A DNA stretch of 64,000 nucleotides from Prochlorococcus sp. MIT 1307 (lineage in GTDB: Bacteria > Cyanobacteriota > Cyanobacteriia > PCC-6307 > Cyanobiaceae): contig NZ_CP139301.1 of assembly GCF_034092395.1 (NCBI RefSeq), forward strand, positions 620,001 through 684,000, written 5' to 3'. Both the position numbers and the translations under genes were made by a program. Below the pieces are notes generated by a model. It ran no database searches. It was not told the DNA's origin and worked only from the letters and a program-made list of their open reading frames with translations. Positions 24,852 to 32,334 of this stretch are shown here, piece after piece (the stretch's first letter is position 1; each line of letters starts with the position of its first letter).

Positions 24852-25994
24852 TCAAGCAATTTTCATATTAGTTAATTCTAGCAATCCATCCCATTGTTTA
24901 TGAATAGACTCAACAAGCCTGAGCTGAACTTCTGCTCTATATAAATTCTGATCACTATATTGAACTTTAAAATAAATATTTCCATTCATAAAGTCGGTTA
25001 GAAAGCGAATAGCCAATTCATAAGGTAAAAACTTAATGCAATATGGTAAATAGTAAAAGTCATAAGCCGAAAAACCCTTTCTTGCTATAGACAAATAACC
25101 GGTAAGAAGGGCTTCACAAAATTCTAAATCAAAACTAATATTAGCCAAGTCTTTTGTCTCCTCGCCAAGTAGATTGCAACAAGAGCGAATACAATCTCCA
25201 ATATCATAGTGAATAATTCCTGATGCAAGAGTGTCAAGATCTATGAGGGATATAATATCTTTAGTGTCATTATCGAACATAAAATTTGTGATTTTAGGAT
25301 CGCCATGTATTGGTTTCTTCATTAATTCCCCTCTAGCTATTGCATCGTTCAAGATAGACACACCTGAACGATGCTTATCTACAACTCTTTCCAGTAAAGA
25401 AAATCTTTTGAAAATTGAAGGTGTGGATATTCGTTTGGATCTAAAATGGTTCAAAGCTTTATCATAATCAGAAAGTATTTTTGTTATGTCATGTAAATCA
25501 TTATCTAATTTTTTTATCCTTTTGAGTGGGAAATCCTTAATTAAATAATGAAAAGTAGCCAGACCTTTTCCAACCTCCTTGGCTTGCTTTGCATTAGATA
25601 TTTTATCCAGACTAGTAGAGGATTGAATGAAGGTAATTGCCCTCCAATATTTATCATCTATTCTTAAAAGAAGTTTTCCCTTGTCAATAGTAGGAATGAT
25701 AGTTGGAATATCCCATCGTTTATAATTAGTTTGATCTTTTTTTTCTCTTATCTTTTTACTAATGTGCAGGCTAATAACATTCCAATTATACATTGGAATT
25801 TCAGGGTCCGAAAATACCGAGGTATTAATTTCTTGTATTACAAAGGATTCTATATCTGAAGAGGGTTTAAGAACTACTAGGAAAGTTTTGTTAATGTTCC
25901 CAAATGGGAGTTCCCTTACAGATAAAATCTGCTTAGAGGGACAGAAGCTGCTTCCAATACTAATCAAATATTCCTGACTATATAAAGAGCTCAA
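24852..25994 (-). CDS. APH-fold phosphotransferase (sugar or small-molecule kinase)
   Basis: This 380-residue protein has the aminoglycoside-phosphotransferase fold. The catalytic loop is H230-G-D232 to N237 (HGDPKITNF), and the metal-binding Asp follows at 252-254 (IDLDT). The N-lobe has a Gly/Asn turn (LPFGNINKTF) like that in NahK-type N-acetylhexosamine kinases. The start codon is a TTG. It lies 46 bp downstream of the Rossmann-like gene on the same strand. The inferred role is kinase for a sugar or polyol. Antibiotic resistance is unlikely in this setting. Confidence 0.75.
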   Translation of the reverse strand: MSSLYSQEYLISIGSSFCPSKQILSVRELPFGNINKTFLVVLKPSSDIESFVIQEINTSVFSDPEIPMYNWNVISLHISKKIREKKDQTNYKRWDIPTIIPTIDKGKLLLRIDDKYWRAITFIQSSTSLDKISNAKQAKEVGKGLATFHYLIKDFPLKRIKKLDNDLHDITKILSDYDKALNHFRSKRISTPSIFKRFSLLERVVDKHRSGVSILNDAIARGELMKKPIHGDPKITNFMFDNDTKDIISLIDLDTLASGIIHYDIGDCIRSCCNLLGEETKDLANISFDLEFCEALLTGYLSIARKGFSAYDFYYLPYCIKFLPYELAIRFLTDFMNGNIYFKVQYSDQNLYRAEVQLRLVESIHKQWDGLLELTNMKIA

Positions 25995-26040
25995 ATCAAA
26001 TAGTTGAAAGAATCCTTTTTATAGCTTTTAATTTATTTTC

Positions 26041-27552
26041 TCACAAGTAGTGTTCTATAAATGATAGAGCTTTTTTATAATTCTCACTATTACCCTTTGG
26101 CTCATGTAAAGGAGTTGCAAAGTCATCTAAAGAGCATGATGACTCAGCCTCAGAATAAATGCAATCGACTATTAGCTCCAATGCCTCTGGAATATGTATA
26201 TTATTCAATGCATCTGCATATCTTCGACTGCTAGATGGACGAACTGAATCTTGGCAATAATTAGCAAGCTCTCGACTCTGTGTCATTACACTAAAAAAAG
26301 TATCTTTAATTTCTGGGGGAGCAAAAACTGACATATATAACAAGTTATTCATAGAGGAATCATGGAGGGGTATGGAATATTTCCTTAGAATTTGGGGCCA
26401 GTATTTTAAGGACTTTATACCTTCAAGCCCACCTTTTTTTAATCCTGCAAATTCACACCATTCTATAAATTCATCAAAATCGTAAGGGCAACGTTTCAAC
26501 TCTTTCATTCGATCAGCAAGAACCTGACCTGCTTGGAAATTTCTAGTTGGTTTTCCTATATTTGGCATCATCATACTTCCACGTACGTCTGCGACCATTG
26601 CTGTTAATTGTGAAAAAGTATGATCTCTAACTTTTTCCAAAAAACCATTTCTTAATAACGCAGCTTCAATCCTCTGAACACCATATCCAAGTTCTGTTAA
26701 TGGAAATGGCTGCAAGTCATATAGGTCGTCTCTATTATCTCTACATACTGAGACTGAGGCTGCCTGATCCAAGCATTGATTTAAAAGCAATGTTAATAAT
26801 GTTGGCAATAAGCCAGGATTCATAGAATGATAGGTATGACCAAAACCAGCAAAAATAGATGAAATATTTTTTGCCGCTTTAATATATTGACCTTCAATAT
26901 TATGGACGCCTGGTGAAACCTGAATATTAGGAGAAATACCATCTAACAATTTTGCACCTAATAGGGCAGTCACTGCATTTGGATGACAGAAGTTTGCAGT
27001 AAAACTATCTAAAGGGTTTCGAAGAGCATCATGTCTATGAAATCCTGAAAAGAAAGCAAGATTATTTTCCTTCTCACATAAAATATATGATTCATTGGTC
27101 ACTTCATTGTGGCTGAAAGAGCCAGATAAACATGCTAATACTACACATTCTCGTTTTAGAATTGTTCGCAACCTACAGGCCTCATACAAATCTTCCTCTA
27201 TATGGTTACTATTAGCACTAAGTATTACAATTTCACACCTAAGTAGCAAATCAGACAAGTTATTATTTACAACCTTATCGCCTTCAATATGGGTTCCCAT
27301 TCCATATAAAGTTTCAATATGTTGAGGATCCATCCCATCTAAAACATCCTCAGAAAATGCGCCTAAAAGGTCTCTATGAGGCCTTGCTGCTAATAAAAGG
27401 CCCTCCCCATCTGTCTGCATTGCGCAGTTATATGCTAGCGAGGCTGCATATAGACCTATGCTATAAAAACCAACTTTGCCTTTACTAAGATCTCTAATTC
27501 TTATGCGTATAGACTCATCAACTAATGGGCTGTAGAAAAAATTGTTTTTCAT
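26041..27552 (-). CDS. Rossmann-like dehydrogenase-related protein, unknown
   Basis: This 503-residue protein has a possible dinucleotide-binding start at about 25-45 (KGKVGFYSIGLYAASLA). A strand-loop VILSAN and a VVLACLSGSFS segment follow, with a helical C-terminal half (NPGLLPTLLTLLLNQCLD). The arrangement recalls glycerol-3-phosphate or 6-phosphogluconate dehydrogenase folds, but the glycine motif is incomplete. It diverges from the StpA-like phosphatase gene across 189 bp and precedes the kinase gene. Function unknown. Confidence 0.6.
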   Translation of the reverse strand: MKNNFFYSPLVDESIRIRIRDLSKGKVGFYSIGLYAASLAYNCAMQTDGEGLLLAARPHRDLLGAFSEDVLDGMDPQHIETLYGMGTHIEGDKVVNNNLSDLLLRCEIVILSANSNHIEEDLYEACRLRTILKRECVVLACLSGSFSHNEVTNESYILCEKENNLAFFSGFHRHDALRNPLDSFTANFCHPNAVTALLGAKLLDGISPNIQVSPGVHNIEGQYIKAAKNISSIFAGFGHTYHSMNPGLLPTLLTLLLNQCLDQAASVSVCRDNRDDLYDLQPFPLTELGYGVQRIEAALLRNGFLEKVRDHTFSQLTAMVADVRGSMMMPNIGKPTRNFQAGQVLADRMKELKRCPYDFDEFIEWCEFAGLKKGGLEGIKSLKYWPQILRKYSIPLHDSSMNNLLYMSVFAPPEIKDTFFSVMTQSRELANYCQDSVRPSSSRRYADALNNIHIPEALELIVDCIYSEAESSCSLDDFATPLHEPKGNSENYKKALSFIEHYL

Positions 27553-27741
27553 AAGATAAACTTTAGCTTACCAAGCACCCATTAAACAAAGAAAATCAGA
27601 GCTCATCGTATCTAAATATCTTTTATAGAAGCAAGTTTTTTTAGCTATACACACTTAATCAAGAAGAAAACTTAGCTTGTGAGGTTAAATAGTATAATTT
27701 ATTATAGAATGATGCTAAGAATGAGAATAAAGTAAAAGTCT

Positions 27742-28965
27742 ATGCAACCAGAAATTAAGCCCAGCATTCTACTTGAAGAGATTCTAGCCTCACACAATTA
27801 TCTTATAGTACAAGACATTGATGGTGTATGCATCCCTTTAGTAAAAGATCCATTAGAAAGAAAGGTGGATATCACTTATGTCCAAGCAGCTAGAAAATTC
27901 AATGGTGAATTTGCTGTTCTAACAAATGGAGAGCATGAAGGAACTAGAGGTGTAAATAGAGTGATTGAAAAAGCATATAAAAGTGCAAATTTATCCCATA
28001 ATTCAGATATATATCTTCCTGGACTAGCTGCCGGTGGTATTGAATATCAAAATAAGTTTGGGCAAGTAGAGTATCCTGGTGTATCTAACGAAGAGTTACA
28101 ATTTCTTAGTAGGATAACAGAATTAATGGAAGATCTTCTAACAAAAAATCTTACTAAAATTTTGCCAATGCTAGAAAAAGGGGAAGCTCAAAATTTTGCA
28201 AGAGCAGCTGTTCTTGCAACAAGATTCTCTCCAACAGTTAACTTGAATGGAATATTTAGCCTAATACCAAATGACATAAAGCTGCAACAAAAGATACAAA
28301 TCATGCTTATGAATATAATGGATAATCTATTAAGTTTGGCAAATAGTCAAGGATTAAATAGTTCATTCTTCTTACATATAGCTCCAAATCTTGGTGAAAG
28401 AGATAATAAAGAGGCAATAAAGTTTTCTTCAGCTGGAGATGTAGGAACAACTGATATTCAATTTATGCTTAGTGGAGCAGTAAAAGAAGCAGGACTTCTT
28501 GTATTAATCAATAAATTTATCCAAAATAGATTTGGGAAAGCTCCATTAGGACAAGATTTTAATGTGAGAAATGCGCCAAGGACAATTCAAGAACTAAAAG
28601 ATCTATGTCAAAAGAAGATATCAGGAGATGAGATGCCTCTTATAATTGGAGTTGGTGATACTGTCACATCGCACCCATCACAGACAGGAGAAGGTTGGCA
28701 AAGAGGGGGAAGTGACAGAGGCTTCCTAACATTAATTCAAGAACTAGGCACCCTATATAACAAGAGAAATAGGGTGGTCTTAGTTGATAGTAGTTTTGGA
28801 GAAGTTGATCGTCCAAGCCTTTCAAATAATCAATTAAAAGGCATAAGTGATCCGGATGATCCTCTTAAGTTTAATACATACTTCAGAACCGGTCCAAAAG
28901 GTTATATTAAATGGTTTAGCCAGTTAGCAGAAGAACAAAGAGTGGTACGACAAAACATGCTTTAA
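27742..28965 (+). CDS. StpA-like salt-tolerance phosphatase (HAD fold)
   Basis: This 407-residue protein matches the Salt_tol_Pase family. In Synechocystis StpA removes phosphate from glucosylglycerol-3-phosphate to give the compatible solute. The HAD motif I is at D25/D27 (VQDIDGVCIP), and a later acidic loop VGDTVTSHP near 310 fits motif IV. Marine picocyanobacteria often make glucosylglycerate, so the substrate may be that ester instead. No synthase gene is in the window. It faces the Rossmann-like gene head to head and has a terminator just after its stop. Confidence 0.8.
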   Translation: MQPEIKPSILLEEILASHNYLIVQDIDGVCIPLVKDPLERKVDITYVQAARKFNGEFAVLTNGEHEGTRGVNRVIEKAYKSANLSHNSDIYLPGLAAGGIEYQNKFGQVEYPGVSNEELQFLSRITELMEDLLTKNLTKILPMLEKGEAQNFARAAVLATRFSPTVNLNGIFSLIPNDIKLQQKIQIMLMNIMDNLLSLANSQGLNSSFFLHIAPNLGERDNKEAIKFSSAGDVGTTDIQFMLSGAVKEAGLLVLINKFIQNRFGKAPLGQDFNVRNAPRTIQELKDLCQKKISGDEMPLIIGVGDTVTSHPSQTGEGWQRGGSDRGFLTLIQELGTLYNKRNRVVLVDSSFGEVDRPSLSNNQLKGISDPDDPLKFNTYFRTGPKGYIKWFSQLAEEQRVVRQNML

Positions 28966-29091: not shown

Positions 29092-30033
29092 GTGGCAGTT
29101 TGTACTTTCCCTAAGTTAAGCAGAAGTCAGCTAACTACTTTACAGGTCAATCTTGGCTATCGCTGCAATCAAAAGTGTGGTCACTGTCATGTAAATGCAG
29201 GGCCAGAAAGGAAGGAAATGATGGACAAAAAGACTTTAGAACTAATCCCTAAGGTCCTTAAACATTACAATCTCAATATACTAGATATAACCGGTGGAGC
29301 GCCAGAACTTCATCCAGATTTTAAGAAGTTAGTAATTGCGGCTAGGGACCTTGGAGTAGAAGTTATAGACAGATGCAATTTAACTATTTTAAATGAGCCA
29401 GGTAATGAAGGTCTTGCAGATTTCTTAGCTGAAAATCAAGTTACTGTTACAGCCTCAATGCCTTGTTATCAAAAAGAAAATGTGGATATGCAACGAGGGA
29501 AAGGTGTCTTCGAAAGAAGCCTTATGGGTCTAAGGCAATTAAATAGTTTGGGTTATGGAAAAAATAACGATAGTTTAATATTAAACCTAGTATTTAATCC
29601 GCAGGGAGATAACTTACCTCCTCCACAAGCAAAGCTAGAAGCTGATTACAGGGAAAAATTAAACGAGAGATATGGTATTTCATTTAATAATTTATATACC
29701 ATAACTAATATGCCAATCAAGCGATTTGCTGCACAGCTAGAAATTTCTGGAAAATTAAGCAATTATCAGAAGCTACTTATTGAGAAATATAATAGCTCAA
29801 ACTTAGAAAATGTGATGTGTAAAACTTTAATAAGTGTTGATTGGCAAGGCCTCTTATACGACTGTGACTTCAATCAGCAACTAGGACTACATATGCAGGG
29901 TCGATATCACATTAAAGATCTACTAAATCAAAAACTTATTTTAGAAGGAGAGTCCATTGAGGTGGGACAGCACTGCTATGGATGCACTGCTGGAAGTGGC
30001 TCTAGTTGTAGTGGTTCTTTAGAAGCCAAATAG
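29092..30033 (+). CDS. arsS: ArsS-like radical SAM protein (arsenosugar biosynthesis type)
   Basis: This 313-residue protein has the radical-SAM cluster CX3CX2C at C25, C29 and C32 (GYRCNQKCGHC), then LDITGGAPELHP. The C-terminal domain has the DUF3641-type Cys pattern (HCYGCTAGSGSSCSG). ArsS-type enzymes join a 5'-deoxyadenosyl group to a dimethylated arsenical, making arsenosugar precursors. The start is a GTG with no strong ribosome site. No arsM or other ars gene is nearby, so the role rests on family similarity. Confidence 0.8.
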   Translation: MAVCTFPKLSRSQLTTLQVNLGYRCNQKCGHCHVNAGPERKEMMDKKTLELIPKVLKHYNLNILDITGGAPELHPDFKKLVIAARDLGVEVIDRCNLTILNEPGNEGLADFLAENQVTVTASMPCYQKENVDMQRGKGVFERSLMGLRQLNSLGYGKNNDSLILNLVFNPQGDNLPPPQAKLEADYREKLNERYGISFNNLYTITNMPIKRFAAQLEISGKLSNYQKLLIEKYNSSNLENVMCKTLISVDWQGLLYDCDFNQQLGLHMQGRYHIKDLLNQKLILEGESIEVGQHCYGCTAGSGSSCSGSLEAK

Positions 30034-31305: not shown

Positions 31306-32334
31306 ATGGATGATTTTTATAGGCTCCTCCTAACATCCGCTGCTGCTTTTATTATAGGCAGCCTACTTTCATTGTTAGCTGCCCGCATCAGTAGAGTTAT
31401 CTTTGGAAGAATAGCAGCACGAACTAAAACTAAAACAGATGATTTCATATTTCAAGTTATAGCAAATGCTATAAAACCTCTAGGTCTCCTTATAAGTGCT
31501 TCAATTGCATGGAAAATTCTACCTATTGAAAATGAAATAAGTAATGCAGTACTTGGAATAATAAAACTAATATGCCTTATCCTTTTAGTAAGGTTAATTA
31601 ATAAAATAGTATTTAGACTAATAGAAAGATGGTCTTTAAAGATTAATGATAGTTCAGTTAGTACGATGCTGAGATCATTAAGTCCCATGTTTCGTGCACT
31701 TGTTTGGTGCATAGGTTTTATTTTTTACCTTCAAAATATGGGTGTCCAAATGGCGGCAATTTGGGCACTATTAAGTGCTGGTGGTATTGGAGCAGGACTG
31801 GCTTTAAAAGAACCTGTACAAGAGTTTTTTGAGTACATAACTATTCTTCTCGATAAGCCATTTGAAAATGGTCAATTTATCAACGTTGATGGTATTTGGG
31901 CCTCTGTTGAAAGGGTTGGCGTACGTTCAACTCGCCTAAGAAGTATTAATGGTGAGATTATTGTAATGAGTAATAGTGCATTAACTAATGGAAAAATTGC
32001 TAACTATGGAGAAATGGAATATAGAAGACTAGTTCATAAACTTGGAGTTGTATATGAAACACCGCATTCAACAATGCAACATATCCCAAGTATTATTCAA
32101 ACAATTGTTGATTCAACCGAAGATGTTATTTTTGACCGTTGTCACTTTATTGAGTTTGGTCAATTTAGCCTAGATTTCGAATTGGTTTATTACATTCCTA
32201 CAAATAATTATCTGCGTGCAATGGAGGCTCAGCAGAAAGTAAATCTTGAAATAATGAAGATCTTTGAAGAGAAAAGTATTGATTTTGCATACCCAACTCA
32301 GACAATTCATTTAACAAGTAATGGTCAAGATTAA
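31306..32334 (+). CDS. MscS-family mechanosensitive channel
   Basis: This 342-residue protein has four N-terminal helices, the last being the pore helix with the Ala/Gly pattern LLSAGGIGAGLALKEPVQEF. It is followed by the cytosolic beta domain (GQFINVDGIWASVERVGVRSTRL, IVMSNSAL) and an alpha-beta cage. It should release solutes on hypoosmotic shock from the inner membrane. It lies 3.3 kb downstream of the StpA-like gene, though not in one unit. Confidence 0.92.
   Translation: MDDFYRLLLTSAAAFIIGSLLSLLAARISRVIFGRIAARTKTKTDDFIFQVIANAIKPLGLLISASIAWKILPIENEISNAVLGIIKLICLILLVRLINKIVFRLIERWSLKINDSSVSTMLRSLSPMFRALVWCIGFIFYLQNMGVQMAAIWALLSAGGIGAGLALKEPVQEFFEYITILLDKPFENGQFINVDGIWASVERVGVRSTRLRSINGEIIVMSNSALTNGKIANYGEMEYRRLVHKLGVVYETPHSTMQHIPSIIQTIVDSTEDVIFDRCHFIEFGQFSLDFELVYYIPTNNYLRAMEAQQKVNLEIMKIFEEKSIDFAYPTQTIHLTSNGQD

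Follow-up and report, generated by a model that had tools for sequence, protein, structure and literature searches.

A 503-residue protein of Prochlorococcus sp. MIT 1307, referred to here as P503, is likely to be a highly diverged glycerol-3-phosphate (G3P) enzyme of the GpsA type that is linked to glucosylglycerol (GG) metabolism and has replaced the housekeeping enzyme GpsA. Its gene lies beside stpA in the 64,000-nucleotide stretch that was analyzed (the window; positions 620001 to 684000 of a one-contig genome of 2.03 Mb), and the relatives used for comparison were Cyanobiaceae (picocyanobacteria). The modeled structure of P503 matches G3P dehydrogenases in fold, P503 takes the place of canonical GpsA across genomes, co-occurs with the phosphatase StpA (also called GgpP), and is located within GG gene clusters of relatives, and the synthase GgpS is encoded in the MIT 1307 genome. 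The reaction, cofactor, and essentiality of P503 are predictions. P503 would be a GpsA-fold protein too diverged for sequence models to recognize, and it would reduce dihydroxyacetone phosphate (DHAP) to sn-glycerol-3-phosphate with NAD(P)H. In GG makers such as MIT 1307, this product would feed GgpS (ADP-glucose plus G3P to GG-phosphate), and StpA would then strip the phosphate from GG-phosphate, a succession that may explain the divergent pairing of stpA with the P503 gene. G3P is the starting point of all membrane glycerolipids. In Prochlorococcus and Synechococcus of subcluster 5.1, ordinary GpsA would have been lost and P503 would also supply the G3P for all glycerolipids, which may be why P503 was retained after the loss of GgpS, GlpK, and GlpD.

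The P503 and stpA genes are head to head and read outward, with starts 189 bp apart, and a kinase gene comes after P503, on the same strand and 46 bp away. All three open reading frames (ORFs), which had been named in a preliminary description of the window, were confirmed. The features of the locus, in window positions, are as follows:

24852 to 25994, minus strand: NahK-like APH-fold sugar 1-kinase, 380 amino acids, a positional neighbor only (phmmer matches to 4ocj and 4wh1)
26041 to 27552, minus strand: P503, candidate divergent GpsA-type G3P dehydrogenase, 503 amino acids (AlphaFold2 fold; phyletic complement of GpsA)
26539 to 26544, minus strand: R337-N338 of P503, equivalent to the Arg-Asn that binds the substrate phosphate (invariant in 53 sequences; profile match)
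26866 to 26871, minus strand: K228-N229 of P503, which probably corresponds to the catalytic Lys-Asn of G3P dehydrogenases (invariant in 53 sequences; weak profile match)
27445 to 27462, minus strand: degenerate dinucleotide-binding loop of P503, S31-x-G33-x-x-A36 (P36 in most relatives), which replaces GxGxxG (alignments)
27553 to 27741, no strand: 189-bp intergenic region common to the divergent P503 and stpA genes (read from the sequence)
27742 to 28965, plus strand: stpA/ggpP, glucosylglycerol-3-phosphate phosphatase of the HAD type, 407 amino acids (TIGR02399; HAD motif)

Sequence searches of Pfam, NCBIfam, and the Protein Data Bank (PDB) with P503, the large Rossmann-like protein of unknown function in the preliminary description, returned no match, and a PDB search with a P503 profile returned nothing usable. 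An AlphaFold2 model built from 53 sequences (mean pLDDT, 87.3; pTM, 0.88) had a two-domain fold, with a Rossmann N-terminal domain and a helical C-terminal domain, that was closest to G3P dehydrogenases. Bacterial, archaeal, and eukaryotic G3P dehydrogenases filled the first 16 places among the PDB entries, with VIA-align Z scores of 23.6 to 28.3, and the best was 3k96, GpsA of Coxiella (Z, 28.3; 310 to 311 of approximately 325 residues at 3.2 Å). The next fold family, ketopantoate reductase, reached only Z 14.4 (14.4 to 14.9 over two models). The other model was of a protein with 49% identity to P503, taken from genus g18 (genomes of 1.6 to 1.7 Mb; probably high-light Prochlorococcus); it had a pLDDT of 85.7, the same 16 entries at the top, and the same best Z of 28.3. 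Foldseek comparisons with the PDB gave E values down to 2e-9 for P503 and 7e-10 for the g18 protein.

Traces of the GpsA family were also found in the sequences. The GpsA C-terminal domain PF07479 gave subthreshold matches in 10 of the 53 family members (best E, 0.003), and genome searches with PF07479 landed on the P503 genes themselves in genome G350 and in Xenococcus PCC 7305. Four elements, K228-N229, D322, R337-N338, and E377-G378, were invariant in the 53 sequences. In an unbiased ungapped profile scan, R337-N338 aligned with the phosphate-binding R249-N250 of GpsA (z, 5.0 versus 2.3 for the next match), and the fourth strand of P503 aligned with the fourth strand of GpsA (z, 3.7 to 4.0); the match of K228 to the catalytic K185 of GpsA was weak and was the best one with a 21-residue window only. 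The residue roles given for P503 are putative and follow those in GPD1 and GpsA; in human GPD1, the catalytic lysine is K204, the second lysine is K120, and the catalytic aspartate is D260. Two invariant arginines of P503 that come after its second strand, R57 and R60, would be suited to NADPH. P503 resembles GpsA and GPD1 (PF01210 plus PF07479) in its whole two-domain fold, in the phosphate-binding Arg-Asn, and in a probable Lys-Asn helix.

The distribution of P503 is complementary to that of canonical GpsA, scored by PF07479 over its cutoff, in a sample of 400 Cyanobiaceae genomes, of which 251 (the good genomes) had a completeness of 90% or more and a contamination of 5% or less. P503 was present in 226 of the 400 genomes, StpA in 235, the kinase in 259, and canonical GpsA in 145; canonical GpsA was not found in MIT 1307. 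P503 without GpsA was found in 143 of the good genomes, GpsA without P503 in 83, both in 21, and neither in 4 (Fisher test with shared ancestry ignored, P = 8e-41). Synechococcus WH7803 carried P503 and no canonical GpsA, and RCC307 and WH5701 carried both. Canonical GpsA was also present in 16 of 20 further P503 genomes, mostly from other cyanobacterial families. The two enzymes therefore coexist outside the marine picocyanobacteria, and within that group the loss of GpsA looks like a later event. The P503 tree had long branches in reduced Prochlorococcus-like genomes, and the other families nested inside the Cyanobiaceae sequences in a midpoint-rooted drawing in which the true root is not established, so that transfer of P503 between cyanobacterial families is possible.

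Bacteria are known to obtain G3P through GpsA, through GlpA/GlpD, or from glycerol via GlpK (PMC6431249), and a survey by Beck et al. in 2012 listed EC 1.1.1.94 among the activities without annotation in Prochlorococcus and "Syc7803" (PMC3369817). Cabello-Yeves et al. reported that the flavin adenine dinucleotide (FAD)-dependent enzyme (glpA) is carried by marine strains and gpsA by freshwater ones, and they named no replacement (PMC9361551). Their report favors an alternative in which marine strains form G3P with GlpD/GlpA, or from glycerol via GlpK, and P503 is merely an extra GG-specific enzyme; adjacent GlpK and GlpD genes in MIT 1307 point the same way. The distribution of these genes makes this alternative very unlikely. 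Each of the 13 GgpS-positive genomes that were tested had both GlpK and GlpD, whereas neither was found in the 11 GgpS-negative genomes in which both were sought. GpsA and GlpD were absent from all 14 GgpS-less P503 genomes tested, and GlpK was absent from all 10 of these that were checked. Their genera include g56, with the Prochlorococcus single cells AG-424-E20 and AG-402-I20, and P503 is the sole candidate source of G3P found in these genomes. GlpD, moreover, normally oxidizes G3P. No paper assigning a function to P503 was found in the open-access literature.

Two further observations concern the glpK and glpD loci. The pair of MIT 1307 (G000:C1, approximately 911.6 to 917.9 kb; locus L230, 5591 to 11842) lies between two GH13 enzymes, one of which is TreS-like and 69% identical to the GH13 of the RCC307-type GG cluster. 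Because glpK and glpD occurred only with GgpS in the tested genomes, this TreS-like protein is a candidate, putative GG-degrading enzyme of marine picocyanobacteria without gghA. Genome G358 was the sole GgpS-positive member of 12 tested in genus g18 (loci L231 and L232), with ggpS, GH13 genes, glpD, and glpK within approximately 16 kb. This stretch looks like a gained GG island and resembles the published intact GG pathway in Red Sea Prochlorococcus.

The phosphatase encoded opposite P503 scored 552 bits against TIGR02399, the glucosylglycerol 3-phosphatase equivalog (curated cutoff, 365), and 530 bits against PF09506 (cutoff, 25), far beyond chance. Its HAD motif, QD[IL]DGVC, was invariant, including in GgpS-less lineages, and the other signature residues were intact as well. 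By sequence, the salt-tolerance phosphatase of the preliminary description is a true glucosylglycerol-phosphate phosphatase (GgpP/StpA). That description had taken the synthase to be missing and had seen in this room for a new branch. The synthase is absent from the window only: a search of the genome found GgpS at G000:C1:398662-400107 (783 bits; cutoff, 569), followed by four genes matching ggtBCDA (the Ggt transporter) of the RCC307 cluster. The argument from a missing synthase therefore falls, and MIT 1307 has an ordinary GG pathway. Like GgpP/StpA of Synechocystis (slr0746), the window protein exceeds the equivalog cutoff and has GgpS in the same genome; unlike it, picocyanobacterial StpA is paired with P503 and is kept in many GgpS-less genomes. 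A separate case is SynAce01 (G083; L111 and L233), in which GgpS and P503 are present but StpA had no match, leaving the phosphatase for GG-phosphate unaccounted for.

Of the good genomes, 162 had both P503 and StpA, 2 had P503 without StpA, 6 had StpA without P503, and 81 had neither. StpA was beside or near P503 on the opposite strand in 13 of 19 P503 neighborhoods, and in RCC307 and its relatives both lie within a full GG cluster in the order ggpS-ggtBCDA, P503, stpA, GH13, glpD, and glpK. Other cyanobacterial families carry P503 without an adjoining StpA. P503 and StpA are a pair in solute metabolism, and the link to compatible solutes suggested in the preliminary description is upheld by the position of P503 inside the GG cluster of RCC307 and its relatives. 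Promoter-like matches in the P503/stpA region did not exceed their frequency in shuffled sequence (chance), and no terminators were found there.

Several observations weigh against the assignment of P503 as a G3P dehydrogenase. Its dinucleotide-binding loop reads S31-x-G33-x-x-P/A36 (with S31 and G33 invariant) rather than GxGxxG, the position paired by eye with Lys120 of human GPD1 is A, S, or V, and the catalytic Asp has no clear counterpart, with the invariant D322 one helix turn before the profile-paired position. P503 and cyanobacterial GpsA did not match significantly when their profiles were compared directly, and the relation is therefore visible mainly in structure; hidden Markov model cross-searches between the two returned only a TRN/SRN motif. 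The complementary distribution is also partly a clade pattern: the genomes with P503 only come from marine organisms that are related to each other, and the Fisher P value therefore overstates the number of independent events. Finally, the four good genomes with neither enzyme do not fit the replacement, although draft gaps are likely to lie behind some such genomes (G310 had only a fragment of StpA). P503 differs further from GpsA and GPD1 in its length (503 residues versus about 310 to 330), in a long insertion, in an extra hairpin, and in C-terminal helices that extend the fold, and no P503 sequence exceeded the curated PF01210 or PF07479 cutoffs. Having failed the Pfam cutoffs and the GxGxxG test, P503 was filed as GpsA-like and highly diverged, outside the canonical family.

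The altered loop and Lys120 counterpart, the insertion and C-terminal extension, and the near-perfect co-occurrence with StpA would be accommodated by a protein that keeps the fold for another job, either reducing a different phosphorylated carbonyl or acting as a noncatalytic partner or regulator of StpA. Such a role is unlikely. It would leave approximately 143 good genomes without canonical GpsA, some of them without any known source of G3P, and would not account for the invariance of the phosphate-binding Arg-Asn and the Lys-Asn pair or for P503 without an adjoining StpA in other families.

The retention of StpA without GgpS in many Prochlorococcus genomes is already known; MIT 9303, for example, carries ggpP without ggpS and does not make GG (PMC11505929). 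In GgpS-less genomes of genus g56, StpA is still under purifying selection (median dN/dS, 0.16, versus 0.10 in GgpS-positive g35). The published speculation that GgpP was kept in such genomes as a new sucrose-phosphate phosphatase (PMC11505929) would agree with this selection and with the absence of a full-scoring S6PP domain from the tested g18, g11, and g40 genomes. It is possible but less likely than not: genera g56, g4, and g30 keep StpA without GgpS and yet have a full-scoring S6PP domain, so a takeover of sucrose-phosphate cannot be the whole reason for the retention. A simple replacement of this kind was rejected as a full account, as it leaves these three genera uncovered. The co-occurrence of P503 and StpA is also compatible with a possible, though quite improbable, GgpS-independent route in GgpS-less Prochlorococcus, from DHAP to G3P and on to glycerol or another glyceryl product, which if true would explain why the two are kept together. 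A parallel is the Dunaliella enzyme DsGPDH (6iuy), in which a G3P dehydrogenase and a phosphoserine-phosphatase-type domain serve an osmolyte pathway (PMC7468427), much as P503 adjoins a HAD phosphatase. DsGPDH is a fused bidomain enzyme that makes the osmolyte glycerol; P503 and StpA, in contrast, are encoded by separate divergent genes, StpA belongs to the GgpP family of phosphatases, and glycerol is only a putative product.

The kinase matched the APH family (Pfam search, E = 8e-8) and the N-acetylhexosamine 1-kinase NahK (4ocj and 4wh1; phmmer, E = 8e-36) over residues 6 to 366, essentially its full length. The APH-fold kinase of the preliminary description is thus, as judged from its sequence, a NahK-like sugar 1-kinase, with a putative role unrelated to P503 and StpA; it differs from NahK in that no hexosamine pathway gene was seen adjoining it. 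The preliminary description had further proposed that a single metabolite could be phosphorylated, oxidized or reduced, and dephosphorylated by the three proteins, and the three genes are indeed adjacent in the window, as they are in several marine genera. As a set, they held together for P503 and StpA and came apart for the kinase, which was negatively associated with P503 among the good genomes (both, 95; P503 only, 69; kinase only, 71; neither, 16). Depending on the genus, the kinase adjoins P503, is separated from it by SbcCD-like nuclease genes, or lies elsewhere in the chromosome, in other genera kilobases away. With its resemblance to N-acetylhexosamine 1-kinases, its pairing with a different ORF, and GgpS present in the genome, the three-gene pathway has a negligible probability. 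It was rejected on the distribution of the kinase across genomes, which marks the kinase as a neighbor of P503 and not a partner; it would be a neighbor with an unrelated sugar-1-kinase role.

The kinase gene is usually followed by a conserved ORF of approximately 190 amino acids without a Pfam match, including where StpA and P503 are absent (loci L221, L223, L224, L225, L228, L094 to L096, and L110). This ORF is missing from the genus of MIT 1307, and some genera have a lytic transglycosylase gene after the kinase. On the other side of the locus, positions 29092 to 30033 encode ArsS, an arsenosugar radical SAM protein (TIGR04167, 453 bits; cutoff, 300), which is a conserved neighbor of stpA in many picocyanobacteria. 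The MscS gene, placed 3.3 kb away in the preliminary description, starts at position 31306, 2.3 kb past the end of stpA, and is merely part of a locally conserved gene order.

Prochlorococcus and Synechococcus WH7803 rank among the ocean's most abundant phototrophs, and the enzyme that forms their G3P has been without annotation (PMC3369817). If the assignment is correct, P503 would close an essential gap in the metabolic maps of these organisms, and a housekeeping task would have passed to a gene connected with a salt protectant. In Prochlorococcus, the orphan GgpP is accompanied by an enzyme that probably makes G3P.

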